From a virus, in the IMG/VR virus record IMGVR_UViG_3300032265_000589, positions 1 through 29,473 of that record: a stretch of 29,473 bases of DNA. The stretch is one strand, 5' to 3'. A program made the translations under genes and the position numbers. The notes beneath the pieces were generated by a model, which was given only the letters and a program-made list of their open reading frames with translations, did not search any database and was not told where the DNA came from. Below, one piece after another: positions 2,707 to 28,878 of this stretch. Position 1 is the stretch's first letter. Each line of letters begins with the position of its first letter.

Positions 2707-3186
2707 ATGACAGACGAGACAAATTTTAACAGGATTGACAGTAATCCCCCAGCACAGAAGAGTAAAATTGCCAACAAGATTTTCACAACCTTTTGCAAGA
2801 AAGAACAGCTTCAGGATATGATAGACCAAATAAAGTCTACGTATACTATTGCTAACAATAAGATACTGGTATTTACTTCCCCTCAGACAGAAGAGTACAT
2901 ACTCACATACAACGTAGAACCTGGAAATCTGTTAGAAGTGAAGGTGATAGGTAATACAGTACTACTACATCGAAACAAAGACTCTAAAACCCTTTTCTCT
3001 ATCAACGCAATAAATTTATTGAACCAAATGGAGAACGGTACGACAGAGGGCTACTACGAAGTTCCTTGGGAAAAATACCAGAAGAGTATTTTGCTTACTA
3101 GGAATAAAGTATTTACTCAGTTAAAGACTGAATTGTATACCATAATAGATACAACACCTAATACTGAAAACAATTTCAACATCTAG
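2707..3186 (+). CDS. Hypothetical protein between polymerase and SSB genes
   Basis: A 159-residue soluble protein, ATG one base after the polymerase stop, so translation is likely coupled. It starts with a polar region (FNRIDSNPPAQKSK), then a mixed alpha/beta body with beta-like runs (NKILVFTSP, LLEVKVIGNTVLLHR) and no Cys cluster or membrane helix. I do not recognise it. In T4-like phages the genes next to the SSB encode late-transcription or helicase-loading factors; position alone is not enough to assign either here. Confidence 0.65.
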   Translation: MTDETNFNRIDSNPPAQKSKIANKIFTTFCKKEQLQDMIDQIKSTYTIANNKILVFTSPQTEEYILTYNVEPGNLLEVKVIGNTVLLHRNKDSKTLFSINAINLLNQMENGTTEGYYEVPWEKYQKSILLTRNKVFTQLKTELYTIIDTTPNTENNFNI

Positions 3187-3240
3187 ACATTAAGCATTTT
3201 TTAATAACCGTTTATTTTTTAATTTCAAAAAACATCAATT

Positions 3241-4272
3241 ATGGCGTTAAGCATCCGCGAGCTAGCAGCACAAAGACTGAAAAAAGCTCAAACAGGTAGT
3301 TATGAAAAGACAGACTACAGTAAAATCAAGTTTAAACCTGAAACTGACAAGGAGTATCAGATTAGGATTTTACCGAACAAGTACTCTGAGTATCCAATCC
3401 ATGAATTGGAAGTACACAAGTACGACACTTTTAAGAAGGCTCCTATCTGCCTTACATCATTTGGAGAGACAGATCCAATTATTAAGTTCACTAAAAGTTT
3501 ATGGGAAGAGGTTAACAAAGCAAAAGCATCTAATGACCCTAACCTAGCTACAATCACTAAAGAGAATGGAGCTATTGCCAAGGCCTTAAGACCCAACAAA
3601 CGTTTCTTTGTACAGGTAATTGTAAGAGGAGATGAAGCAAAAGGACCATTGATTTGGGAATTTGGTACCACAGTTGCTCAACAATTAGACGGATTGTTAG
3701 CTACAGAAGATTATGAGACTATGGCTGACATCCAAGATGGTGTAGACCTTACCATAAAAGGATTTGAGGCTTCTATGCAGAACGGCGGTAAGTATACTGA
3801 CGTGACTATCACTCCAAAGAGAAAGAGCACACCATTGTCTACTGATGCTGAAACTGTTGAAAAGTGGCTTGAAGAGCAAAAGAATCCAGCAGAAATACTC
3901 TACAAGGCAATGTCTTATGATGAGTTGAAGCAAATGTTAAGAGAATACCTAGAGCCAGGTGATGAGGATGAAGATGAAGCTCCTGTTAAGAAAGCTGCAC
4001 CACTTCAACCTGCAAAAGCTCCTGTTAAAAGAGCCCCAGAACCTATTGAAGAAGAGGATGAGGAAGAAGAGGAGGAAGAAACACCACCACCACCTCCTCC
4101 TGCTAAAAAGAAACCTACTGTTAAAAAGACAGTGGTACTTGAACCAGAAGAAGATGAGGAAGAGGAAGATGAATTATCTCACATAATCCCTAAGGGAAAG
4201 TCTTCAACAAAAACCTCAGCCCCTACTTCTAATAAGAAGTCTTGGAATGATGTATTTGATGAAGAAGATTAA
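3241..4272 (+). CDS. gp32-like single-strand DNA-binding protein
   Basis: A 343-residue protein coating ssDNA during replication and recombination. The N-terminus (SIRELAAQRLKKAQ, residues 4-17) corresponds to the basic cooperativity segment of T4 gp32 (STAELAAQMAKL). The core includes RFFVQVIVRGDEAKGPLIWE, matching the gp32 strand region YWANIYVVKDP...VFKYRFG. Only one Cys (in APICLTSFGE) remains where gp32 has a Cys/His zinc site, so the zinc subdomain seems lost. The last 100 residues are a long disordered tail of acidic runs, a PPPPPPAKKKP patch and Lys-rich segments, ending in the acidic tip WNDVFDEED. Acidic tips in SSBs recruit partner enzymes. A 54-base gap precedes it and a large hairpin follows, so it may have its own expression control. 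Confidence 0.88.
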   Translation: MALSIRELAAQRLKKAQTGSYEKTDYSKIKFKPETDKEYQIRILPNKYSEYPIHELEVHKYDTFKKAPICLTSFGETDPIIKFTKSLWEEVNKAKASNDPNLATITKENGAIAKALRPNKRFFVQVIVRGDEAKGPLIWEFGTTVAQQLDGLLATEDYETMADIQDGVDLTIKGFEASMQNGGKYTDVTITPKRKSTPLSTDAETVEKWLEEQKNPAEILYKAMSYDELKQMLREYLEPGDEDEDEAPVKKAAPLQPAKAPVKRAPEPIEEEDEEEEEEETPPPPPPAKKKPTVKKTVVLEPEEDEEEEDELSHIIPKGKSSTKTSAPTSNKKSWNDVFDEED

Positions 4273-4281
4273 TTAACACTT

Positions 4282-4340
4282 AACCAAGGTCACATAGCTT
4301 TAAACTCCGAGTGAGTGACCGGCTTCCTGTGACCTTGGTT
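4282..4340 (+). terminator. Long hairpin after the SSB gene, likely terminator
   Basis: AACCAAGGTCACA (4282-4294) pairs perfectly with TGTGACCTTGGTT (4328-4340): a 13-bp stem with a 33-base loop, followed by TTAACTTAAATT. The loop holds a second GTGACC (4315-4320) that could pair with GGTCAC (4288-4293) instead, giving two competing folds. Terminator or 3'-end protection is likely; the T tract is short. Confidence 0.65.
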
Positions 4341-4366
4341 TTAACTTAAATTAAAAACAAATAAAA

Positions 4367-4591
4367 ATGACAAACACACAACAATCCCCAGTAACTATTT
4401 CGGAATCATTCAAGATTGAGCAAGAAAGAATGAAAGTAGACCAAGCTCTTCAAATAATAAGGTCTCTTGCTGACTTACTTTATGTAGAGACTGACTACAG
4501 AACAGGTTTATATCTAAACAGACTTGGATTTAGTGCCGAACAAACATTAGTAATCAGGACGAAAATACTTGAACAAGTCTATAAATTGTAA
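4367..4591 (+). CDS. Small hypothetical protein
   Basis: A 74-residue protein beginning at ATG 4367, 26 bases after the SSB hairpin. It appears mostly helical (residues 12-40, with IEQERMKVDQALQIIRSLADLL) and has no Cys, signal peptide or membrane segment. No family recognised. It starts the run of small genes between the SSB and recombinase and is followed six bases later by another small ORF. Confidence 0.55.
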   Translation: MTNTQQSPVTISESFKIEQERMKVDQALQIIRSLADLLYVETDYRTGLYLNRLGFSAEQTLVIRTKILEQVYKL

Positions 4592-4596
4592 TCAAA

Positions 4597-4749
4597 ATGA
4601 AGAAAGGAAAACAAAAATTAACCCTAGAAGAGTTAGCTAAGTCACAAGGGTACAAAAGTAGAGAAGATAAACTAGCTAACTTTAAATTTCGTGGACCTAA
4701 CAAAGGGTACATCCCTATTACTGAAAGAAATATTCAGTATCATCAATAG
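4597..4749 (+). CDS. Small basic hypothetical protein
   Basis: A 50-residue ORF starting at ATG 4597, five bases after the preceding stop. It is Lys-rich with a helical start (LTLEELAKSQGYKSREDKL) and a Gly/Pro turn (FRGPNKGYIPITERN). Its 3' half overlaps, in the +1 frame, an open frame encoding a membrane segment (4691-4855). Either the two are separate overlapping genes, or this protein continues into that frame by ribosomal frameshift or an old frameshift mutation. Function unknown. Confidence 0.5.
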   Translation: MKKGKQKLTLEELAKSQGYKSREDKLANFKFRGPNKGYIPITERNIQYHQ

Positions 4750-4855
4750 TCCCTGGCCAGGAATCGTAAGCATACTAGGCCTATTAGGCACACTTGGGTA
4801 TCTGAATCGAAGGTCAGCACAGTTTTTAGGTTCTGGAGGCAATGCAAAAATCTAG
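4691..4855 (+). CDS. Possible overlapping small membrane peptide
   Basis: An open frame (4676-4855) in the +1 phase relative to the gene at 4597. The first usable start is GTG 4691, giving 54 residues with one clear hydrophobic segment (PWPGIVSILGLLGTLGYL) flanked by Lys on one side and NRR on the other, as expected for a single-pass membrane protein. Past 4749 this is the only thing occupying the roughly 100 bases before the tRNA. It may be an independent GTG-started gene or the C-terminal part of a frameshifted product of about 85 residues from 4597. Not confirmed. Confidence 0.35.
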   Translation: MDLTKGTSLLLKEIFSIINSPWPGIVSILGLLGTLGYLNRRSAQFLGSGGNAKI

Positions 4856-4859
4856 GGTT

Positions 4860-4933
4860 CATAATATAGCTCAATTGGTTAGAGCCCCTGTATTGTAACA
4901 GGGAGACTTGGGTTCGAATCCCTACTATGACCA
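4860..4933 (+). tRNA. tRNA-Thr(UGU), non-canonical
   Basis: A clear D arm (GCTC 4869-4872, loop AATTGGTTA, GAGC 4882-4885), an anticodon arm CCCTG/CAGGG (4886-4890 and 4899-4903) around TATTGTAA, and a T loop TTCGAAT (4913-4919). The U before TGT (4894-4896) gives anticodon UGU, reading ACA threonine. The acceptor CATAATA/TACTATG has one A-C mismatch and is followed by an encoded ACCA (4930-4933). Oddities: the anticodon loop is 8 bases, or 6 if T4891-A4898 pair, instead of 7; the T stem is only GGG/CCC; and pairing extends 5' of the acceptor (GGT 4856-4858). It may be degenerate or specialised. Confidence 0.7.
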
Positions 4934-4947
4934 TTAAAATAACAATT

Positions 4948-5142
4948 ATGACAACAGCCTTATATGATGCACCTCTTACTCAAGAGGAAGAAAGTACAAG
5001 AGACCTAGCAATATTTTTAGATTGGGTATTGAAACACTACTCAACTACAAATGACGGACAATTCTTTGGATGGACAGATTCAATAGATAGAGAAGTTAGT
5101 TCAGCGGATATTAGCAAGCATTACAAATCAGTAAACATATAA
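4948..5142 (+). CDS. Small hypothetical protein
   Basis: A 64-residue acidic protein. I use the ATG at 4948 (leader AACAATTATG, as for neighbouring genes); an in-frame ATG at 4927 lies inside the 3' strand of the tRNA and is unlikely to be used. The sequence has an acidic helical part (TQEEESTRDLAIFLDWVLKHY) then a polar C-terminus ending SVNI. Its stop is two bases before the next ATG, in a junction sequence that is repeated two gene ends later. Function unknown. Confidence 0.55.
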   Translation: MTTALYDAPLTQEEESTRDLAIFLDWVLKHYSTTNDGQFFGWTDSIDREVSSADISKHYKSVNI

Positions 5143-5150
5143 TTATGACA
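5132..5150 (+). repeat. Gene-junction direct repeat, copy 1
   Basis: TAAACATATAATTATGACA spans the stop of the 4948 gene and the start of the 5145 gene. The same 19 bases recur at 5695-5713 across the next gene junction. Confidence 0.8.
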
Positions 5151-5705
5151 TTAATACAACACGCACAAACAGAATTGGAGTTACAAGGGTTATTCTCCAA
5201 AGAAAATGATTTTTATGGTGGAATGACAGGAAAAAGTGTCATGGAGCTTATAGAGGTATTCAGTAAGCAATGTCATTCAGGTATGAGTGCACCTATTGTT
5301 GTAGATTTATTCAGTAAATTAGCAAACTACAAACCATTAGGACCGCTTACTGGTGAGGATAATGAATGGTCTCAATGTACTCTGGATGATACCTTGTTTC
5401 AGAATAAGAGAGATGGTGGTGTGTTTAAGCACAAAGACGGTAGCGTGACATACAATAGTGCAATAATTAAAAGATGCCCTAATGGTGTGACCTGGTCAGG
5501 TCCTTTATATCTGACTAGAGAAGATGCTATTAATAGTGTAAACCGAATTAAGGTAGAAGTAAAGGGATTCCCATTTACCCCAAAGAAATTTTATATAGAT
5601 GTATTAGAAGAAGAGGTAGAAAAAGATGATTGGATAATGTGGGTAAAAGATCCCTCTCAATTAGAAGAGGTATTTGATTACTATAAACAAACCTTAAACA
5701 TATAA
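5145..5705 (+). CDS. Hypothetical protein
   Basis: A 186-residue soluble acidic protein in the small-gene cluster, starting two bases after the previous stop. The middle (SGPLYLTREDAINSVNRIKVEVKG) and the acidic C-terminal part (LEEEVEKDDWIMWVKDPSQLEEVFDYYKQ) suggest an alpha/beta fold. There are no Cys clusters, membrane segments or signal peptide. I do not recognise a family. The C-terminal NI ending matches that of the preceding gene because the junction DNA is repeated. Confidence 0.6.
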   Translation: MTLIQHAQTELELQGLFSKENDFYGGMTGKSVMELIEVFSKQCHSGMSAPIVVDLFSKLANYKPLGPLTGEDNEWSQCTLDDTLFQNKRDGGVFKHKDGSVTYNSAIIKRCPNGVTWSGPLYLTREDAINSVNRIKVEVKGFPFTPKKFYIDVLEEEVEKDDWIMWVKDPSQLEEVFDYYKQTLNI

Positions 5706-5713
5706 TTATGACA
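5695..5713 (+). repeat. Gene-junction direct repeat, copy 2
   Basis: Second exact copy of the 19-base TAAACATATAATTATGACA, spanning the stop of the 5145 gene and the start of the 5708 gene. A shorter related junction, TTAAACGTATGATA, occurs twice further on (5969 and 6263). Confidence 0.8.
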
Positions 5714-5980
5714 GATAGAAATAGACAAACAGGAAGAACATCAAGAATTGTTGATTTTGTAGTAGACCAATTGTTCAATGTAGGTCAGTGTATAGTTACA
5801 GATCATATTGTATTTGAATTTGAATCTACTAAAAAATCACAACTAGAAGATGGTCTAATTAGAAAAGTACAAGAAAGAGTGGCATTTAATCTAAGACATT
5901 TTGAAAAACCTATTAAACTTAATACTGAGATAATAGAGGTGAAAGGTTTTAAAATTGTACATTTTGAATTAAACGTATGA
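5708..5980 (+). CDS. Small hypothetical protein
   Basis: A 90-residue protein with a nucleotide-enzyme-like opening (RNRQTGRTSRIVDFVVDQL) that resembles phage proteins beginning with a degenerate P-loop (QTGRTSR in place of GxxGxGKT). The rest is a beta-rich segment (FNLRHFEKPIKLNTEIIEVKGFKIVHFEL). Without a full Walker A or a visible Walker B I do not assign nucleotide binding. It starts two bases after the previous stop and ends one base before the next gene. Confidence 0.55.
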   Translation: MTDRNRQTGRTSRIVDFVVDQLFNVGQCIVTDHIVFEFESTKKSQLEDGLIRKVQERVAFNLRHFEKPIKLNTEIIEVKGFKIVHFELNV

Positions 5981-5981
5981 T

Positions 5982-6275
5982 ATGAAAATACTAAATCAAC
6001 TACTAATTAGATCTATAGGAGTTCGATTGTTTTTTAAGTACAGAAAATTTATTTATGCTAATCAAAAAGTAAGAAATCAGCTAACCGCATTATTTTTATT
6101 ACATTTTGGAAAAGGTTATTCATGTAGCTTTAAATTAATAGGTAAATATGTACTATCTATGCATTCAGTGACATGGTCAGAGGACGATCTTTATAGTAGA
6201 CTGGTTATAGGTGTTTACAAAAAACAAGATAATGAATTGATGAATTCTTTTTACATTAAAGCATTAAACGTATGA
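5982..6275 (+). CDS. Small basic hypothetical protein
   Basis: A 97-residue basic protein, rich in aromatic and Lys/Arg residues (RLFFKYRKFIYANQKVRNQL), with one moderately hydrophobic stretch (LTALFLLHF) too short to call a membrane helix. No family recognised. It overlaps the next gene by four bases (ATGA), implying coupled translation. Its end sequence TTAAACGTATGATA duplicates that of the preceding gene. Confidence 0.55.
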   Translation: MKILNQLLIRSIGVRLFFKYRKFIYANQKVRNQLTALFLLHFGKGYSCSFKLIGKYVLSMHSVTWSEDDLYSRLVIGVYKKQDNELMNSFYIKALNV

Positions 6276-6493
6276 TAGGAACATTAGAATACACAACATT
6301 TTTCCAATCTACTCTTCCCAACCACTGGGCTATCACAGTCTATGGCCAATGGGGTCCTATACCCAAATGTAAGATTAGAAGTTATGAACTAAGACAGCAA
6401 GACGCTAGAGAATTAAAAGAAAGCGATTCAGGTACTGAAAGAGAATTTTATATCGATGAATGGGGTACAGCAGCATTAATAAATACACAATAA
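6272..6493 (+). CDS. Small hypothetical protein
   Basis: A 73-residue protein translated from an ATG overlapping the previous stop by four bases. It is rich in Trp and Thr (NHWAITVYGQWGPIPKCKIRSY) with a polar, acidic centre (QQDARELKESDSGTEREFYIDEWG). No Cys pair, membrane segment or family signature. It is the last of the small genes before the recombinase gene, 11 bases downstream. Function unknown. Confidence 0.55.
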   Translation: MIGTLEYTTFFQSTLPNHWAITVYGQWGPIPKCKIRSYELRQQDARELKESDSGTEREFYIDEWGTAALINTQ

Positions 6494-15798: not shown

Positions 15799-15989
15799 AA
15801 GAAATAACACCAGTACAATGTAGGAGATTTCTCCTAGAATCCGAAGATGAAGTGATTCATTTAGTAGAATTTAGTAGAGGGTATATAGGCTACTTCTATG
15901 ATAATGCCTACCAAACAGAGCCCTGGAATACAGGTATGCAAATACTGACCAAAGAAGAATTTGAACAAAAATTTAATGTCAAGTTATGA
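15795..15989 (+). CDS. Small acidic hypothetical protein
   Basis: A 64-residue protein linked by four-base overlaps to both neighbours (15795 with the preceding stop, 15986 with the polymerase start), so it is translated in a chain with them. It looks beta-rich (VIHLVEFSRGYIGYFYDNAY) with a short C-terminal helix (TKEEFEQKFNVKL). The overlap arrangement supports it being real. I recognise no family. Confidence 0.6.
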   Translation: MKEITPVQCRRFLLESEDEVIHLVEFSRGYIGYFYDNAYQTEPWNTGMQILTKEEFEQKFNVKL

Positions 15990-17938
15990 TTTTAGACGAT
16001 GTATACATTTTTGATATAGAAACAAACGGCCTTCTCAAAGAGGCCGATAGAATACACGTACTGAGTGTAGGTAAGGTAGTCAATGGGGAACTGAAGGTGA
16101 GGTCTATTACCGACTATGATCAGATGAAGGATTTCTTTATGGATGAAACTATCACTAAGATAGGACATAACATAATCCAGTATGATATACCTGTAGTTGA
16201 AAAGATACTTGGTATAAACCCACCTAAGGAAAATCTGATAGACACCTTACCGGTTTCTTGGTACCTGTTCCCAGAATTATTAAAGCATGGTCTTGAATCC
16301 TATGGGGAGATGTTCGGTGTACCTAAACCTCACATAGATGATTGGGAGAATCAAACACTTGAAGAGTATAAGCACAGGTGTCAAGAAGACGTTAAGATAA
16401 ATCATCTGCTATGGCAGGAACAATTATCTTATCTGAGGGAGATGTATGATAATGATGATGAGATAATACACTGCGTTGACTATTTGGCATTCAAGATGCA
16501 TTGTCTGAGAGACCAGGAGATAGTAGGAGTAAGGTTTGATGTGGAGTGGTGTGAAGCGGCTATATCAAAATTGAACTCAATCATAGAACCTAAGCTAAGG
16601 CAATTAGAATCCGTGATGCCAAAGGTAGAGGTTACCAAGAAGGTAAAGAGACCTAAGGAATCATCTCTAACAAAGAAAGGTGGATTAGAGTCTGTGGCCG
16701 GGCAGAAGTGGAGGCTACTCTGTGAAGAATATGGTGTACCTTTTGACTACGAAGAAGAGTTTGAAATAGTCTCTGGGTACAAAGAGCCTAATGCAAATTC
16801 AGATAGTCAAATAAAGAACTTCTTATTCTCATTAGGGTGGAACCCTAGAACTTTCAATACCACTAAGAACAAAGAAAAAGGTACACAAAAAGAAGTACCA
16901 CAGGTATATGATAAGAAAAAGGGTAGCGGAGCTGTGTGTGACTCAGTAATAGAACTCTATGAGAAAGTACCAGAATTGGAGCTCTTAGAGGGGTTAGGTG
17001 TATTAGGCCATAGAAAATCTCTCCTAGAGGGGATGTTAGAAGCCGCTATTGATACCGGAGACGGTAACATCAGAGTTTACGGTACCGCAAGGGATTATAC
17101 CAATACATTAAGACTTAAGCATACCAAGCCATTGGTAAACTTACCTAAAGTAGGTACACCTTACGGAGAAGAGATAAGAGGATGTCTCATCAATGATGAA
17201 GGTTATGTCCTGTGTGGATCTGACTTGAATAACATTGAAAGTGTTACCCGGAACCACTATCTTTTCCCGTATGACCCTGATTACGTTAGAACCATGGATG
17301 ATCCCCTATATGATAGCCATATAGATATTGCGGTAGTAGGTAACATGATTACCAAAGAGGAAGGAGAACTCTATGTTAAAATTGATAAGGGAATCATAGA
17401 GAAACCAACAGAGGAGCAAATGGTTATATTCAAAAAGATAAAACCTATAAGGTCTAAGGCTAAGAATACAAACTTCGGTGCCACTTATGGGTCAGGTGCA
17501 GCTACTCTGGCAAAGACAGGTAAAATGCCTTTATCAGAAGCTAAAAAACTTCTAGAGATATACTGGCAACGTAACTGGGCTATCAGGGCATTTGCAGAAG
17601 ATTGTTCAGTAAAAGTAGTCCAAGGACAGAAATGGATAAAGAATCCTGTATCTAAGATTTGGATTTATCTCAGGTCAGAGAAAGATAGGTTCTCATCAGT
17701 TAACCAAAGTTCTGCTGTATTTGTATTTGATATGGTAATAAAGAATCTTAGAAAGTTAGGAGTAATTATTCAATATCAAGTCCATGATGAGGTATTGTTT
17801 AGTGTACCTATAGGTAAGGAAAAAGAGACCAAAAATCTAATACAAAAGGTGATGGATATGGTTAACGACGAATTGAAGCTAGATGTGACAATAAAAATGA
17901 CACCTCAATTTGGTAATAGATACTCTGATTGTCACTAG
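15986..17938 (+). CDS. T7-like family-A DNA polymerase with 3'-5' exonuclease
   Basis: A 650-residue enzyme, probably the main replicative polymerase. The proofreading domain has Exo I FDIETNGL (Asp 10, Glu 12), Exo II GHNIIQYD (Asp 66) and an Exo III-like HRCQEDV (Asp 134). The Tyr usual four residues before this Asp is Arg, but a His at 129 gives H-x4-D, as in DEDDh nucleases. The polymerase domain has motif A GSDLNNIES (Asp 412, Glu 417) and motif B RSKAKNTNFGATYG (Arg 488, Lys 492, Phe 496, Tyr 500), matching T7 R518/K522/Y526/Y530 spacing. Motif C is QVHDEV (His 599, Asp 600, Glu 601). Phe at the position of T7 Tyr 526 is the variant that favours dNTP over ddNTP. No 5'-nuclease domain is fused; that activity is at 7631. 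Confidence 0.93.
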   Translation: MILDDVYIFDIETNGLLKEADRIHVLSVGKVVNGELKVRSITDYDQMKDFFMDETITKIGHNIIQYDIPVVEKILGINPPKENLIDTLPVSWYLFPELLKHGLESYGEMFGVPKPHIDDWENQTLEEYKHRCQEDVKINHLLWQEQLSYLREMYDNDDEIIHCVDYLAFKMHCLRDQEIVGVRFDVEWCEAAISKLNSIIEPKLRQLESVMPKVEVTKKVKRPKESSLTKKGGLESVAGQKWRLLCEEYGVPFDYEEEFEIVSGYKEPNANSDSQIKNFLFSLGWNPRTFNTTKNKEKGTQKEVPQVYDKKKGSGAVCDSVIELYEKVPELELLEGLGVLGHRKSLLEGMLEAAIDTGDGNIRVYGTARDYTNTLRLKHTKPLVNLPKVGTPYGEEIRGCLINDEGYVLCGSDLNNIESVTRNHYLFPYDPDYVRTMDDPLYDSHIDIAVVGNMITKEEGELYVKIDKGIIEKPTEEQMVIFKKIKPIRSKAKNTNFGATYGSGAATLAKTGKMPLSEAKKLLEIYWQRNWAIRAFAEDCSVKVVQGQKWIKNPVSKIWIYLRSEKDRFSSVNQSSAVFVFDMVIKNLRKLGVIIQYQVHDEVLFSVPIGKEKETKNLIQKVMDMVNDELKLDVTIKMTPQFGNRYSDCH

Positions 17939-17999: not shown

Positions 18000-18317
18000 A
18001 TGAGTTACAAAGCAAAACATGACAGGATTATCCTGAAAGCGATTAGCCCTACTGAAACACAAATAGGCAGAATTGTTATACCAGATTTGGCACAAGAGAA
18101 GGCTGAAATCTATGAAGTAGTAGCTGTAGGTCTTGGGTTTACAAACCCTTTTACAAAGGAGTGGATAGCAACCCAGCATCAAGTAGGGGACAGAGTTTAT
18201 TGTAAGAAAGCAGTAATGCACGAGTTACCAGACATTGGTGATGATAAGTATTACTCGACTAGAGATAATGAACCTCTAGCTTATTTGGAAAATACAGAAT
18301 CAACCTCTCAAGATTAA
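18000..18317 (+). CDS. groES: GroES-like co-chaperonin
   Basis: A 105-residue Cpn10-family protein that would cap the GroEL cage. It begins with the family signature KHDRIILKAISPTE (E. coli GroES LHDRVIVKRKEVET) and continues with GRIVIPD at the mobile-loop flank, YEVVAVGLG (E. coli GEVLAVGNG), VGDRVYCKK (VGDIVIFND) and the C-terminal DNEPLAYLE (ESDILAIVE). The segment after VGDRV (KAVMHELPDIGDDKYYS) replaces the usual YGVKSEKIDNEEV. T4 gp31 is the known phage example of a GroES substitute; here it is paired with a GroEL gene 450 bases downstream, which is much rarer. Confidence 0.88.
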   Translation: MSYKAKHDRIILKAISPTETQIGRIVIPDLAQEKAEIYEVVAVGLGFTNPFTKEWIATQHQVGDRVYCKKAVMHELPDIGDDKYYSTRDNEPLAYLENTESTSQD

Positions 18318-18769: not shown

Positions 18770-20452
18770 ATGAGCGTAACAATCACATCAGGACAAGAGC
18801 TTAAAGAAAAGCTCCTTAAAGGTATCAACCTATCAGCAGACACAGTCACTGCAACATTAGGTAGTTCAGGAAGACCCGTTGCCATCCGGGACCAGGAAGG
18901 TACAATCCGTATCACAAAAGATGGATACAGTGTAGCTAATGCAATAACCTCATTTGAGGATCCTACAGAGGATATGGCATTACAACTGTTGAAAGCGGCA
19001 GCTAAGAAGTCAGTAGACGAAGCTGGTGATGGTACAACCACCACTACTTTACTAGTGCAATCGATAGTAAACGAATGTTTGGATATAACATCCAAGGAAA
19101 CTAACGTAGTTGAAATCCAAAAAGGTATAGCAGCATCTGTAAGTGCAGTAGTAACTAACCTTAAAGAACAAGCTATGGAGATAACTACCGAAGACCAAAT
19201 CTACAATGTAGCTAAGTTGTCTGCAAACGGAGATGAGAATATCGCTAAGTTGATCTCATTAGCCATAGACAAATCTGGAAGAGACGGCAGTGTATCTATC
19301 GAAGAATCTAAATACGCAGAAGACTCTTTGGAAGAGGTGGAAGGTATGGTGTTAAGCAAAGGTCTACTACACCATCACTTTGTTACTGACGAAGCTAAGA
19401 ATCATTCTTTATTACTGAATCCTTGCATCTTGTTAGTTGATGAGGTAATCACAAAAGCAGAGTCAATAGTTAACTTCATGCAGTATGCAGCAGAGAAAGA
19501 ACGCCCGTTGTTACTTATCGCAGAAGGGGTAGAAGGTGCAGCTATCTCTGTGTTGATTGTAAATCACCTAAGAGGTACCTGTAAAGCAGCAGTAATCAAA
19601 TCTCCAGACTTCGGTGATCGTAAGAAAGCAATCTTGGAAGATATTGCCACTATCACCGGTGCAACAGTTCTTAGTAAAGAAAAAGGACACAACCTTGAGA
19701 AGCTAAAGGATTTAGGTCAGTACTTAGGTTCAGCTAGGTCTGTTACTTCTACAAAGGATTCCACCACTATCATTGATGGTAAGGGAGACAAAGAGCAAAT
19801 TGAAGAAAGACTTCTTGCTATCAAGGAACAAATCGACAATGCTAAATCAGCATTTGAAAGAGAGAACCTCCAAGAAAGATTAGGTAAGATTATTGGTGGA
19901 GTAGTCATCATCAACGTAGGTGGTAAGTCTGAGGTAGAAATGAAAGAACGTAGAGACAGAGTAGAAGATGCCTTATTTGCCACTAAAGCTGCTATTGCAG
20001 AGGGTGTAGTCCCAGGTGGAGGATTAGCTCTAATCAATACTGAAAGTGCCCTAGATGAGCTTGTATTAGCCAACAAAGACCAAGAGATAGGTAAGAGTGT
20101 AATCAGAAGGGTTCTATATGCACCTTTCAAGAAGATTCTTAAGAATGCAGGTATCGAGAACCACTATGAAATTCTGTCTGAGATTAAAGCTAATAAGGAT
20201 AAGTCTTACATGATAGAGCAAGCTAAGACTACATCGCCTAACCTTACAGAAGTAGAATCTCATAAAACTTCACTTTGGCAAGGATACAATGTAAGAACAG
20301 GTGAATATGGTAACGTACAGGAGATGGGAATACTAGACCCTGTAAAGGTAACCAGAGTAGCTCTTCAGAATGCATCTAGCACTGCCGGTATCTTAATGAC
20401 AGTGGCCGCTGGGGTTAACGAAAGTAAAGTAGAAACACAACAAGAAGGATAG
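18770..20452 (+). CDS. groEL: GroEL-like chaperonin
   Basis: A 560-residue group I chaperonin, near the usual length. The equatorial ATP site is intact: GDGTTTTT at 86-93 with Asp 87, and VPGGGLAL near 414-421. The hydrolytic Asp is in EDALFATKAA (Asp 400, E. coli Asp 398). Numbering of the apical domain matches E. coli exactly from 191 to 265, so the substrate-binding patch can be compared residue by residue. Tyr 199, Ser 201, Pro 202 and Tyr 203 become Leu, His, His and His (segment GLLHHHF), Phe 204 is kept, Leu 234 and Leu 237 become Val and Met, and Val 263/264 become Ile/Val. The C-terminal GGM repeat is missing and is replaced by VETQQEG. A full phage GroEL is uncommon; a few jumbo phages are known to carry one. 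The gene ends with a hairpin terminator. Confidence 0.95.
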   Translation: MSVTITSGQELKEKLLKGINLSADTVTATLGSSGRPVAIRDQEGTIRITKDGYSVANAITSFEDPTEDMALQLLKAAAKKSVDEAGDGTTTTTLLVQSIVNECLDITSKETNVVEIQKGIAASVSAVVTNLKEQAMEITTEDQIYNVAKLSANGDENIAKLISLAIDKSGRDGSVSIEESKYAEDSLEEVEGMVLSKGLLHHHFVTDEAKNHSLLLNPCILLVDEVITKAESIVNFMQYAAEKERPLLLIAEGVEGAAISVLIVNHLRGTCKAAVIKSPDFGDRKKAILEDIATITGATVLSKEKGHNLEKLKDLGQYLGSARSVTSTKDSTTIIDGKGDKEQIEERLLAIKEQIDNAKSAFERENLQERLGKIIGGVVIINVGGKSEVEMKERRDRVEDALFATKAAIAEGVVPGGGLALINTESALDELVLANKDQEIGKSVIRRVLYAPFKKILKNAGIENHYEILSEIKANKDKSYMIEQAKTTSPNLTEVESHKTSLWQGYNVRTGEYGNVQEMGILDPVKVTRVALQNASSTAGILMTVAAGVNESKVETQQEG

Positions 20453-24081: not shown

Positions 24082-24918
24082 ATGGATAAACTAAAGGCAC
24101 TTTTTAAAGATAACTGGAAATCGATAATCTTGTCCTACTTCTTGTTTGCTGTCAATTCTATACTGAGTATCTCGTACCCTAAACTACTGGGCAATACCAT
24201 TGACCATCTAATGTCAAAAGATTATTTTTATATCTGGTATTTAATACTTACATTTGCAGTGATGATGTTATTTGGGTACATCGGTAGGATTTACGACATA
24301 CAAGTATTCTCAAGAATCCACAGGAAGTTCGCTTCCACCGAAACACAAAAACAACTCGAAAAAGGTGTGGAGTCCACCAAGATTAACGGCAGGATAAACA
24401 TGTTAGGTAACGTAGTAAGGTTCTTTGAGGTTGACGTAGTTACCGTACTCAACACTACTTTCGGTGCTGTTGGCTCTTTGTATTTCTTAACTTTGGTTAG
24501 TTGGAAGCTATCAGGTCTCCTGTTACTTACAGGAGCAGCATTAGCAGGATTAAGCTACAACTATTCACCTAAGGCAGCGGAGCTTACCAAAGCTGGTAAT
24601 GACCTCAGTGAAGACCAATCAGATGTGGTATCCAGCAGGAAGATATCTTTGATTAACAACTTACTTAGAGCTTCTCAGAAGCTATCTATAAGAAGAGCTA
24701 AGCTAGATGCAGGGTTCAGTCTCAGTATACAGGGTATAGTATATGGAAGCGTTACAGCCTTACTCACATACTATGTTATGTTCAACAAGGTTACAATTGG
24801 AAGTGTGTTCTCGACCTACCGGTACATGTTTGACTTTTGTAACTCACTTATTGGTGTACCATTTATAGTTACATCCTATCTGCAAATTAAAGATGTTATT
24901 AAAAGATTAGAAGAATAA
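24082..24918 (+). CDS. ABC-exporter transmembrane domain, no ATPase
   Basis: A 278-residue membrane protein resembling the type-1 ABC exporter transmembrane domain. There are about six hydrophobic segments, near residues 14-32, 48-66, 130-148, 150-166, 215-235 and 250-268. Long polar helical stretches between them (IHRKFASTETQKQLEKG, ELTKAGNDLSEDQSDVVSSR) correspond to the intracellular coupling loops. The SYPKLLGNTIDHLM start is typical of exporters. A full exporter continues with a nucleotide-binding domain of about 230 residues; here the protein stops after KDVIKRLEE and no Walker motifs follow in the next genes. It may borrow a host ATPase, poison a host transporter, or be a remnant. Confidence 0.78.
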   Translation: MDKLKALFKDNWKSIILSYFLFAVNSILSISYPKLLGNTIDHLMSKDYFYIWYLILTFAVMMLFGYIGRIYDIQVFSRIHRKFASTETQKQLEKGVESTKINGRINMLGNVVRFFEVDVVTVLNTTFGAVGSLYFLTLVSWKLSGLLLLTGAALAGLSYNYSPKAAELTKAGNDLSEDQSDVVSSRKISLINNLLRASQKLSIRRAKLDAGFSLSIQGIVYGSVTALLTYYVMFNKVTIGSVFSTYRYMFDFCNSLIGVPFIVTSYLQIKDVIKRLEE

Positions 24919-26313: not shown

Positions 26314-26478
26314 ATGAATAAAGCTGAGAGTACTAGATGTTACCTTAATTATCTTGATAAGAATAGAGGTTGGTTCAATTCGACTACATTTAAACCTCAA
26401 TGTATTATAAACGGTAAAGTAGTGAACCTATTAACTATCGAGGAGTTTGAATTAACAAATAAAGAATATGAACAATAA
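26314..26478 (+). CDS. Small hypothetical protein
   Basis: A 54-residue ORF starting at ATG 26314 (leader AAAGAAATATG), overlapping the thyA start by 11 bases. The sequence (CYLNYLDKNRGWFNSTTFKP, then a short acidic helix LTIEEFELTNKEYEQ) has no recognisable domain. The compact spacing on both sides supports translation. Function unknown. Confidence 0.55.
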   Translation: MNKAESTRCYLNYLDKNRGWFNSTTFKPQCIINGKVVNLLTIEEFELTNKEYEQ

Positions 26479-27133
26479 ACTAGATAAGCAGTACACAGAC
26501 CTCCTTCAAGACATACTTGATAATGGTGTAAAAAAAACAGATAGAACAGGTACAGGTACACTGTCAGTATTTAGTAGAGAAATTAGACATAAAATGTCTG
26601 ATGGATTTCCGTTACTGACTACAAAGAAGATGTACTTTAAGGGTGTTGTAACTGAATTATTATGGTTCTTACAAGGACGTACTGATTTACGTTATTTACT
26701 TGAGAATGATTGTAATATTTGGGATGGGGACGCTTATAAGGCTTATGAAAAGGCTTATGAAAAGGACCCCTCCATAGGACTATCTTTACTTGTTGCAAGA
26801 GTAGACGGTAAACATACATACCAAAAACCAACAAAAGAAATGTTTATTGCTATGATTGAGGCTGATGATGAGTTTTCAAGGACATGGGGTGATTTAGGTC
26901 CGATTTACGGGGCACAATGGAGAAGTTGGAAGTTCACAGATAAGTTTACAAATGGAGAACAGATTGCTTATGTAAATGGAAAGGTAGACCAGATTGCAAA
27001 TTTAATCAAAGACCTTAAAACAAATCCAGATAGTAGACGATTAATGGTAAATGCTTGGAATCCATCTGATTTACCAATCACTGATAATAGAAGTGATGAT
27101 GAATTGTATAATGACTATCTGAAACAGATTTAG
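26468..27133 (+). CDS. thyA: Thymidylate synthase, N-terminal part of split gene
   Basis: The first 221 residues of a thymidylate synthase, the folate-dependent enzyme making dTMP from dUMP. Visible family motifs are DRTGTGTLSVF (phosphate-binding Arg 26), GFPLLTTKK, ELLWFLQGRTDLRYL, IWDG, GDLGPIYGAQWRSW and NPDSRRLMVNAWNPSDL (Arg 190, Arg 191). The catalytic Cys is not here; it lies in the second part at 27914. Two insertions relative to the E. coli enzyme are seen: about 50 residues after IWDG, including a tandem AYEKAYEK, and a polar extension after NPSDL ending at DDELYNDYLKQI and TAG. If translated alone it cannot be active; it needs the other half in trans or RNA joining. Confidence 0.9.
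   Translation: MNNKLDKQYTDLLQDILDNGVKKTDRTGTGTLSVFSREIRHKMSDGFPLLTTKKMYFKGVVTELLWFLQGRTDLRYLLENDCNIWDGDAYKAYEKAYEKDPSIGLSLLVARVDGKHTYQKPTKEMFIAMIEADDEFSRTWGDLGPIYGAQWRSWKFTDKFTNGEQIAYVNGKVDQIANLIKDLKTNPDSRRLMVNAWNPSDLPITDNRSDDELYNDYLKQI
26741..26764 (+). repeat. Tandem 12-base repeat inside thyA
   Basis: GCTTATGAAAAG is repeated exactly in tandem (26741-26752, 26753-26764), with a partial third unit GCTTATAAG just before. It encodes AYEKAYEK in a lineage-specific insertion of the enzyme. Confidence 0.85.
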
Positions 27134-27165
27134 TTATTTTACTCAACTTTATTGATATTTATAAT

Positions 27166-27174
27166 AAAGGAGGT
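27166..27174 (+). promoter_or_regulatory. Strong Shine-Dalgarno sequence for homing endonuclease
   Basis: AAAGGAGGT, nine bases before the ATG at 27184. It is a near-perfect ribosome-binding site, unlike the A/T-rich leaders without Shine-Dalgarno of the other genes here. Confidence 0.75.
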
Positions 27175-27183
27175 AGTGTCATT

Positions 27184-27921
27184 ATGATAATTTATAAAAC
27201 AACTAATAATGTTAACGGTAAAATTTACATTGGAAAAGATAAAAAAAATAATCCAAAATATTTAGGTTCTGGTAAAATACTTAAACAAGCAATTACTAAG
27301 TATGGTACAGAATCGTTTACAAAGGAAATTATCGAGGAGTGTGAAGATGAAAAGATTTGGTTAGAAAGAGAAAAGTATTGGATTGAATATTTTAACGCAA
27401 TTAAATTAGGGTATAACATTGCACTTGGTGGAAGTGGTGGTGACACGATTTCTAATCACCCAAACAGGGATGAGATTAGAAAAAAACATAGTGAAAAAAT
27501 GAAAGACCCAAAAATTAATAAGAATAAAGAAAAGGGTAGAAAACTTATTATTAAGAAGCGAGATGACCCTAATTGGGTTAACCCTAGACTCGGTAAGGAA
27601 AGTCCCTTAATTGGTAGACCTAACGGACGAAAGGGTATATCTAACCCAGTACATTCTGAATGGATGAAAGAAAATAATCCAATGAAGGGTAAAACACATT
27701 CCGATGAAATAAAAAAGTTTCTAAGAGAGATAAACCAAAAACCTAAAAAAGAGGAACATAAAAACAAAATTAGTGAATCAGCACCAAATAATAAAAAATG
27801 TATTATTGAAGGGGCTGAGTACAGGAGTGTAGCATATGCCAGTAAAGTCTTAGGTATTTCAGAAAACACTGTTAGAGGTAGGGTTAAGAATAAAAATTTT
27901 AAAAATTGGAATTATGAATGA
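27184..27921 (+). CDS. GIY-YIG homing endonuclease
   Basis: A 245-residue homing endonuclease that would cut thyA alleles lacking the insertion and so spread itself. The catalytic domain opens with IIYKTTNNVNGKIYIGKD (GIY-YIG signature) and has the conserved Glu in WLEREKYWIEYF (about 60-71). The middle has NUMOD3-type repeats (NPRLGKESPLIGRPNG; NPMKGKTHSDEIKKFLREIN). The C-terminus (CIIEGAEYRSVAYASKVLGI, continuing SENTVRGRVKN) is a NUMOD1/IENR1-type DNA-binding helix-turn-helix. This is the domain order of T4 I-TevI, which sits in the T4 thymidylate synthase intron. Here the gene fills nearly the whole 786-base insertion, and its stop (TGA 27919-27921) lies inside the second thyA part. It is A/T-richer than the flanking thyA, consistent with transfer. 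Confidence 0.93.
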   Translation: MIIYKTTNNVNGKIYIGKDKKNNPKYLGSGKILKQAITKYGTESFTKEIIEECEDEKIWLEREKYWIEYFNAIKLGYNIALGGSGGDTISNHPNRDEIRKKHSEKMKDPKINKNKEKGRKLIIKKRDDPNWVNPRLGKESPLIGRPNGRKGISNPVHSEWMKENNPMKGKTHSDEIKKFLREINQKPKKEEHKNKISESAPNNKKCIIEGAEYRSVAYASKVLGISENTVRGRVKNKNFKNWNYE

Positions 27922-28534
27922 GAAGTTAACAAAAGAAGAGTTTTTGAAAAAATTAAAAACTGATGAGGATTTTAATAGTAAATTCGGCAGAAAAAATATT
28001 ACTGAAGGTAAACAAGTACTTCCCCCATGCCACTATGGATTTCAATGTTATACTAGAGAATTAAATTTGGAGGAAAGAAGAGAGATTGCTAGAAATAAAT
28101 TAAATCCTAGAGAATGGGCAGATGTTATTAAATTAGCTCATTACAATGAGACTTATGATAAGTACAATATTCCAACCAGAGCATTATCATTGAAATGGAA
28201 TCAACGTTCAGTTGATACGCCATTAGGTTTGCCATTTAATATAGCATCTTATGGTCTATTGTTAGAGATACTTGCAAAAGAAGTTAACATGGTACCAGAT
28301 GAATTGATTGGTAGTCTTGGTGATTGTCATATTTACCTAAACCAAATTGAAGGTGTTAAAGAACAGATTGGAAGAGAAGGGTATATGTTACCAACACTTA
28401 AGCACATGAAAACTGATGCTTTCTATAAGTCATTATCTGAAGATCAATCACTGTACACACATTTAGATAATACGGACTTTCAAATTGAGAATTATCAATC
28501 ACACCCATCAATTAAATTCCCTTTATCAAATTAA
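27914..28534 (+). CDS. thyA: Thymidylate synthase, C-terminal part of split gene
   Basis: A 206-residue continuation of thymidylate synthase carrying the nucleophile Cys 39 in LPPCHYGFQ. It also holds the dUMP-binding WNQRSVDTPLGLPFNIASYG (Arg 98, Asp 101, Asn 109), GDCHIYLNQI (His 139, Tyr 141), and the family C-terminus HPSIKFPLSN. The first 36 residues (NEKLTKEEFLKKLKTDEDFN...) are polar and helical, filling the same surface loop as the tail of the first half. Its ATG at 27914 overlaps the endonuclease stop by eight bases, so it could be translated by termination-reinitiation. Codon AAT (27917) follows in frame from ATT (27128-27130) if bases 27131-27916 are removed, giving an uninterrupted LKQI-NEKL. 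Confidence 0.9.
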   Translation: MNEKLTKEEFLKKLKTDEDFNSKFGRKNITEGKQVLPPCHYGFQCYTRELNLEERREIARNKLNPREWADVIKLAHYNETYDKYNIPTRALSLKWNQRSVDTPLGLPFNIASYGLLLEILAKEVNMVPDELIGSLGDCHIYLNQIEGVKEQIGREGYMLPTLKHMKTDAFYKSLSEDQSLYTHLDNTDFQIENYQSHPSIKFPLSN

Positions 28535-28539
28535 AAATT

Positions 28540-28878
28540 ATGGATTTTCATATCGGACAAATAGTTTATCATAGAGATGTCTATGAACATAGAGAACCAC
28601 TAGAAATAGTCGGTATTCGTAAAGATGAGTTGGAACTCGAAGGTGATTATAGTGGTGGAACTAATGGAGTAAAACAAAAATCATGGTTACCAATAAAAGG
28701 TGTTTCAGTAGTGTATAATTATGCATATAAAAAGAAATGTAGAGATACTGCGGTTGCAATTGAAGAATTGGCAAAACCGGTTGATAGAAATGGAGATACA
28801 ATGACAAGTACCATGTTTGACTTACTTGATATGGTATTTAGATTAACAACCGATGTTTCATATAACCCCGAATGTTAA
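28540..28878 (+). CDS. Hypothetical protein
   Basis: A 112-residue protein five bases after thyA. The N-terminal half looks like a small beta-barrel (FHIGQIVYHRDVYEHREPLE, then GVKQKSWLPIKGVSVVYNY), similar in style to short SH3-like phage proteins. The C-terminal half is helical. Two Cys (68 and 112) are isolated. No family is assigned with confidence. Confidence 0.55.
   Translation: MDFHIGQIVYHRDVYEHREPLEIVGIRKDELELEGDYSGGTNGVKQKSWLPIKGVSVVYNYAYKKKCRDTAVAIEELAKPVDRNGDTMTSTMFDLLDMVFRLTTDVSYNPEC

Follow-up and report, generated by a model that had tools for sequence, protein, structure and literature searches.

The window analyzed here is a complete IMG/VR virus record (IMGVR_UViG_3300032265_000589; 29,473 bases) from a virus of bacteria, in which thymidylate synthase (ThyA) is encoded by two open reading frames (ORFs), an N piece at 26468–27133 (221 residues; stop codon TAG at 27131–27133) and a C piece at 27914–28534 (206 residues), flanking an endonuclease ORF at 27184–27921 (245 residues); these and all features described below for the locus lie on the plus strand. 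The two pieces match complementary halves of the Pfam model Thymidylat_synt (PF00303), the N piece covering profile positions 1–139 (expect value [E] 3e-51) and the C piece positions 140–265 (E 4e-33), and together they contain the ThyA catalytic motifs. The core of the N piece (residues 1–202, 26468–27073) carries the Arg21-type motif DRTGTG (26540), ELLWFL (26654), and PDSRR (27026), and that of the C piece, which begins at residue 35 (28016), carries the catalytic Cys codon (28028), QRSVD (28202), FNIASY (28235), and GDCHIY (28319). The middle ORF is 32% identical to I-TevI of phage T4 (BLASTP, E 6e-19) and matches the homing endonuclease family phrog_314 (PHROGs, E 1e-46), while scoring marginally below the Pfam cut-offs for GIY-YIG (22.4 versus 22.6 bits) and for the I-TevI DNA-binding domain (26.3 versus 27 bits); by these resemblances it is a predicted I-TevI-type GIY-YIG endonuclease with both a catalytic and a DNA-binding domain. 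The coordinates, the Pfam halves, and the I-TevI match thus bear out the original prediction, made from the letters of the window, that a thyA gene is split here by a GIY-YIG endonuclease gene and that both halves retain their active-site residues. Its count of 53 bases between 27131 and the endonuclease ATG was likewise correct, as was the placing of the endonuclease stop inside the second half, the C-piece ATG opening an 8-base overlap with the endonuclease ORF.

Comparison with intact relatives locates the break in the loop before the catalytic cysteine, as had been proposed, and redraws the limits of the insertion. The loop from WN to PCH is 10 residues long in 139 of 141 distinct intact genes (it is short by eye in the other two), as exemplified by the nearest intact comparators, L003 (NAWNVSELDEMTLPPC) and the intein-bearing L005 (NAWNCSELDQMVLPPC). 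In the window, the same loop reads NAWNPSDL followed by 19 residues and the stop, the endonuclease, and then 34 residues before VLPPC. Since the intact loop is of fixed, short length, residues 203–221 of the N piece (the N tail, PITDNRSDDELYNDYLKQI, 27074–27130) and residues 1–34 of the C piece (the C tail, 27914–28015) are additions, and the whole cassette, comprising N tail, stop, endonuclease, start, and C tail, extends over about 27074–28015. Neither tail was found in any of the 141 distinct intact relatives; a separate intact type represented by L282, retrieved through its tail, has a C-tail-like insert and is considered below. Between the window and L001, moreover, the cassette is 98% identical (940 of 960 positions, 27069–28028), whereas outside it the gene is largely a mosaic of near-identical and unrelated blocks. 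The tails are, on this comparative evidence, element-borne. The original prediction had set the insert at 27131–27916 (786 bases). Excising that segment does leave one frame, because both ThyA ORFs share a frame, but as the whole insert it is too narrow and misses both tails, the true insert running from about 27074 to 28015. The restored frame itself carries little meaning, given that insert length is divisible by 3 in 8 of the 20 split loci at the window's site.

These 20 loci belong to a larger set. IMG/VR was scanned with the N piece and two C pieces (best 80 matches each), with alignments of the C tail and the N tail (48 and 21 loci, respectively), and with a profile built from 130 intact genes; split loci were counted if both pieces were present and the DNA at the C-piece 3′ end was distinct, with C-only contigs left out. 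At least 37 split thyA loci with both pieces were recovered, representing 37 distinct protein pairs, and they are broken at three sites: A, that of the window (20 loci); B, after QWRNW (11 loci); and C, in the small-domain loop (6 loci). The catalytic Arg, Cys, Asp, Asn, His, and Tyr motifs, searched as relaxed patterns, are kept in all 37. The intervening genes differ between and within sites. GIY-YIG genes lie at 12 of the 20 site-A loci and HNH types at two more (L115 and L254); all 11 site-B loci have HNH types (L277 by resemblance only); and site C has either a 323-residue protein (L117, L222) or GIY-YIG or similar genes (L177, L178, L189, L223). The HNH-like ORF of L115 ends in an I-TevI DNA-binding segment like that of the site-A GIY-YIG enzymes. 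On the thyA tree, site A shows 16 label changes for 20 members, site B 7 for 11, and site C 5 for 6, and for all split labels together 27 changes were counted where shuffling gave a mean of 35.8. By this analysis the splits do not form one clade, the sole claim for which the tree was used because the genes are mosaic with variable loops.

In six of the site-A loci (L113, L126, L248, L249, L250, and L255) no endonuclease was recognized and yet both tailed pieces are kept. The pieces are separated by 20 bases in L126, 169 in L249, 236 in L113, 364 in L248, and 812, with small ORFs, in L250 and L255; Pfam found no family in the two small ORFs scanned (the first of L250 and that of L113). At two loci, L113 and L249, the N tail continues directly into C-terminal endonuclease residues (KNWSYE and ENKNFKNWNYE), which we read as probable deletion scars.

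The C tail resembles a part of ThyA itself. Its helix (LTKEEFLKKLKTDEDFNSKFG, 27926–27988) corresponds to the ThyA helix lying ahead of GDLGPIYG, present in the window's own N piece as native helix B (TKEMFIAMIEADDEFSRTWG, 26831–26890); by alignment, that helix belongs in the solved Enterococcus faecalis and Lactobacillus casei enzymes to an extra segment near residues 90–139, known as the small domain. Against the native helix-B profile, each of the 13 C tails tested outscored all of 2000 shuffles, and in sequence the C tail is accordingly best described as a copy of this small-domain helix of ThyA. N tails from sites A and B score a mean of 52.8 against each other versus 18.1 when shuffled, an aggregate test that overstates significance since related tails were shuffled independently; from their sequences they are clearly homologous, and so are the tail pairs. 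Site-B C tails also carry a prefix, THEDGTP, resembling the LHPDGRP prefix that opens the site-C C piece (0 of 1000 shuffles, three tails), and a prefix of site-B style occurs on two site-A loci, L272 and L274. Together these similarities suggest site C as the source of the tails, the transfer having probably run from C to the other sites. Derivation of the N tail from native helix A was tried and set aside, the position-specific test being insignificant for most tails (L113, 34 of 2000 shuffles; others, 109 to 1372 of 2000). Local scores of single N tails were reached by 0–23 of 1000 shuffles against site-C N ends and by 6–40 of 400 against native helix A, so that copying of helix A is suggestive only.

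Tail sequences were confined to thyA within the scans made. The C-tail scan returned 48 loci, 41 of them at split thyA and seven others (L257 and L268, relics; L282, L287, L288, and L289, intact genes; L292, native helix B), and all 21 loci of the N-tail scan were split thyA. No tails in other genes emerged from these IMG/VR scans, each of which used one short pattern, and tblastn searches of a phage collection with the tail sequences gave no matches, possibly owing to the low-complexity filter.

The ratio of nonsynonymous to synonymous divergence (pN/pS) is 0.16 (site A, 19 loci) and 0.21 (site B, 9 loci) for N tails, counts that omit loci whose tail does not match the search motif (e.g., L113), and 0.23 (site A, 20 loci) and 0.11 (site B, 11 loci) for C tails, against 0.89–1.97 when C tails are read in the wrong frame; locating tails by motif biases these values toward conserved residues and does not affect the wrong-frame control alike. 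Synonymous divergence in the tails is near saturation (pS 0.46–0.68), and because synonymous sites vary freely, a role at the DNA level (e.g., as endonuclease target) fails to explain tail conservation. For whole pieces, pN/pS ranged from 0.22 to 0.44 (N pieces) and from 0.29 to 0.54 (C pieces) in nine locus pairs. Judged by these ratios, the pieces, in all nine pairs, and the tails are under protein-level purifying selection. The viruses concerned also appear to have no substitute in their recovered DNA: beyond the pieces, no second ThyA scored above the cut-off in any of the 36 records searched (the window and every other split locus except L123, a near copy of L118), and ThyX was found in none of them; 9 of the 36 records exceed 100 kb, although most are incomplete.

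A structural model in which the window's pieces were joined by translating through the stops and the insert aligned as a whole to single ThyA chains. The best was that of Lactobacillus casei, to one chain of which both pieces aligned over 281–282 residues (Z 27; best alignment, Z 27.1, 281 residues, model range 3–688). The two short C-tail helices of the model (489–498 and 500–506) mirror native helix B (123–132 and 134–140). The model thus predicts that both pieces can share one ThyA fold.

We consider it likely that the locus specifies a two-polypeptide ThyA, split by the cassette, unspliced, and docked by the element-borne tails. The insertion of an endonuclease cassette into the loop before the catalytic cysteine would have left thyA to be expressed as two separately translated polypeptides, with no splicing to remove the cassette. 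The cassette would itself supply the coding sequence of two tails, adding a short helix at the end of the N piece and the helix-B copy at the start of the C piece. Held to each other across the break by these tails, the two polypeptides would take up the usual ThyA fold and jointly contribute every catalytic residue. The loci themselves display the architecture, its recurrence at three sites, the homology of the tails, selection on tails and pieces alike, and the persistence of the split without an endonuclease, and no other thymidylate synthase was recognized in the records searched; what we infer is the production of both pieces, their association, docking by the tails, and activity of the enzyme. 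A two-polypeptide ThyA had also been suggested in the original prediction and is supported by the negative intron search, the short endonuclease-free splits, and purifying selection.

Several observations nevertheless weigh against this reading. An intact ThyA of another lineage (L282, L287, L288, and L289, all one protein; L282:2491–3480) has a C-tail-like helix in the same loop, and because this type is intact the C tail is compatible with an unbroken enzyme. The closest cellular matches of the L282 protein are about 40 residues shorter and mostly from SAR86 bacteria (among 80 loci listed), and the gene may either have been rejoined after a split or have adopted the helix independently. Two of the 36 records have a weak ThyA match elsewhere that falls below the cut-off, and another thymidylate synthase could lie outside records that are mostly incomplete. 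The structural model, finally, contains a 262-residue nonsense linker with which the N tail is merged, has a mean predicted local distance difference test score (pLDDT) of 69.5 and a predicted template modeling score (pTM) of 0.54, and was built from an alignment whose intact rows already favor the ThyA fold.

The alternatives to a two-polypeptide enzyme with docking tails differ in whether the halves are joined and in whether they work. A self-splicing intron overlapping the endonuclease ORF and joining the halves in the RNA would have a precedent in T4 td, whose group I intron carries a related endonuclease, and the original prediction had kept open a very compact splicing element of this sort. 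The 27134–27183 spacer is, however, too short for an intron core, and the covariance-model search then proposed as a check, run permissively with Rfam over 26400–28700 (2301 bases), gave no group I or II intron, only chance matches resembling small nucleolar RNAs, whereas it detected the T4 td intron in a control of equal length (RF00028, 40.3 bits, E 2.9e-8). At gathering thresholds Rfam returned only a transfer RNA in the whole window and only a transfer-messenger RNA (tmRNA), in L028, among 20 split loci, weak evidence because the same threshold misses the T4 td and nrdB introns, which leaves the empty scan of the 20 loci compatible with a hidden intron. Related breaks have only 20 to 364 bases between the pieces, and the shortest rules out an intron for want of room; both tails would moreover be coding sequence on either side of the intron, and in td the intron occupies another place in the gene (profile position 257). 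These breaks and the permissive search leave the compact element without support, and splicing of the RNA is in our estimation highly improbable. Joining at the protein level, with the tails acting as an atypical split intein, would fit the gene order, which is that of fractured genes, and the presence of a full intein in the same gene of L005. Inteins carry an N-terminal Cys or Ser and a terminal His-Asn before Cys, Ser, or Thr. No N tail starts with Cys or Ser, no C tail ends in His-Asn before Cys, Ser, or Thr, the window pieces match only Thymidylat_synt in Pfam (the control intein of L005 being found at E 3.5e-15), and the C tail is a ThyA helix, so that protein splicing is scarcely credible. 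The L005 intein, of the LAGLIDADG type, starts at 4580 in thyA (3998–6421), directly before the catalytic cysteine (PF14890, E 3.5e-15; PF14528, E 4.6e-12); the C part of this thyA is up to 96% identical to that of the window, and the intein can be seen as a rival invader of nearly the same place.

A more serious competitor grants the two polypeptides and regards the tails as passive scars of the cassette's origin, with assembly possible without them. Engineered enzymes often complement from fragments that have no added tails, and a copied ThyA segment would account for the C tail on its own. The low tail pN/pS (0.11–0.23) at nearly saturated pS, the keeping of the tails after endonuclease loss, and the occurrence of the same tail pair at two different break points speak against mere scars, an explanation that we regard as unlikely but deserving of weight. 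That the split gene is dead, its pieces decaying remnants and thymidylate synthase being provided by the host, finds an example in one decayed locus, L257, with truncated pieces. It is difficult to reconcile with catalytic motifs in 37 of 37 loci, N and C pieces that both show purifying selection in every one of the nine pairs, and frames that remain open across diverged loci, and we think it improbable.

For the two-polypeptide ThyA with docking tails, the nearest parallel is in Aeromonas phage Aeh1, where nrdA is split by mobE and the two polypeptides NrdA-a and NrdA-b form an active enzyme; the title of Crona 2011 states that assembly of Aeh1 NrdA uses interaction domains derived from the mobile element. 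In both cases a free-standing homing endonuclease divides an enzyme of nucleotide metabolism into complementary ORFs in order, without an intron and with intact relatives. The enzyme and the endonuclease class are different, and the thyA splits are known here from genes alone; thyA further differs in being broken at three sites, by several endonuclease types, with one tail that is the enzyme's own helix and with six loci that lack an endonuclease. T4 td resembles the window in that a thymidylate synthase gene is interrupted by a related GIY-YIG endonuclease, but td is joined by RNA splicing, whereas the window has no detectable intron and is broken elsewhere. Fractured genes also have a free-standing endonuclease gene between two gene parts that each bear an additional segment, but those segments are split inteins, which the thyA tails are not.

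T4 gene 60/mobA and gene 43A/43B of Aeromonas phage 25 are likewise splits associated with endonucleases; their products function as two polypeptides or copurify, and the sources consulted describe neither shared tails nor recurrence for them. Homing endonucleases are already known to produce split enzymes, and a 2010 review treats how the halves find each other as an open question. Phage thymidylate synthase genes with group I introns are known, and no report of a ThyA split into two polypeptides was found in the open-licence full-text literature. The thyA case would thus extend the known endonuclease-split enzymes, and a ThyA made as two polypeptides appears to be new. It offers a natural series in a small, well-understood enzyme with solved structures, comprising three break points, several endonuclease types, endonuclease-free loci, and one whole gene with a tail-like insert; docking becomes directly testable by deletion or swapping of the tails, which may also provide a ready-made way to split enzymes.

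The origin of such a cassette can be pictured, with rather less than even confidence, as that of a portable self-docking unit that began at the harmless small-domain loop (site C) and moved, with its helix copies, to B and A. The two helices flanking site C would already pack together, so that each new break would self-assemble; sites B and A would be more sensitive places than C, and the two-part enzyme would outlive the endonuclease. If this is true, selfish endonucleases would have a third means of persisting within an essential gene, alongside ribozymes and inteins.

As for expression, the spacer 5′ of the endonuclease (27134–27183) contains a promoter-like sequence, ATATTTAT (27155–27162), and a Shine-Dalgarno sequence, AAAGGAGG (27166–27173), and GGAGG was found only at the endonuclease start among 31 window starts compared. 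The C-piece start has an A-/T-rich context like other starts in the window. Its overlap with the endonuclease ORF makes reinitiation, the original proposal for translation of the second half, plausible in the window; it is no general rule, since the C-piece ATG lies within the end of the upstream open frame (overlap of 4 to 11 bases) in 20 of the 37 loci and 17 start without overlap. Of the 33 inserts exceeding 500 bases, 30 have a promoter-like ATATTTAT or TATAAATA in the gap that separates the N-piece stop from the start of the endonuclease, compared with a background of 119 in 5000 random 60-mers for a motif set chosen after inspection. The motif is sometimes in the loop of a hairpin covering the ribosome site (L260, L266). 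Such hairpins are on record for I-TevI and mobE. Among the spacers folded, 4 of 12 reached z ≤ -2.4; for the window spacer (z -0.68) a sequestering hairpin was not supported.

Other arrangements were seen around thyA. L257 is decayed (926–1162 and 3001–3288): a mini ORF carries an N tail of site-B type, the HNH gene is broken, and the C piece, which has a C tail of site-A type, is truncated. Small ORFs near thyA consist of two ThyA variable-loop segments (profile positions ~78–126 and ~198–252) with the rest of the enzyme missing (L144:2892–3272, which has no Pfam or PHROGs family, L118:1288–1635, L117:1146–1505, L057:1352–1705, and others). N-terminal thyA fragments precede a complete thyA on its 5′ side in L068 (2240–2341), L073 (3998–4114), L133 (2567–2641), L134 (448–852), L170, and L203, that of L068 being followed by a GIY-YIG-like segment; L068 and its like perhaps mark a fourth site of insertion, at which the 5′ end has been duplicated without the gene being broken. 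Directly downstream of the split thyA of L028, a virus contig, is the tmRNA gene mentioned above (6116–6488; RF00023, 94 bits). Elsewhere in the window, a 278-residue ORF at 24082–24918 encodes an ABC (ATP-binding cassette) transporter membrane-region protein (PF13748, the only Pfam model matched), GroES-like (18000–18317; PF00166) and GroEL-like (18770–20452; PF00118) chaperonins are phage encoded, and two unlike family A DNA polymerase ORFs (PF00476) lie 13 kb apart, at 1383–2705 (E 2e-11) and 15986–17938 (E 7e-20).

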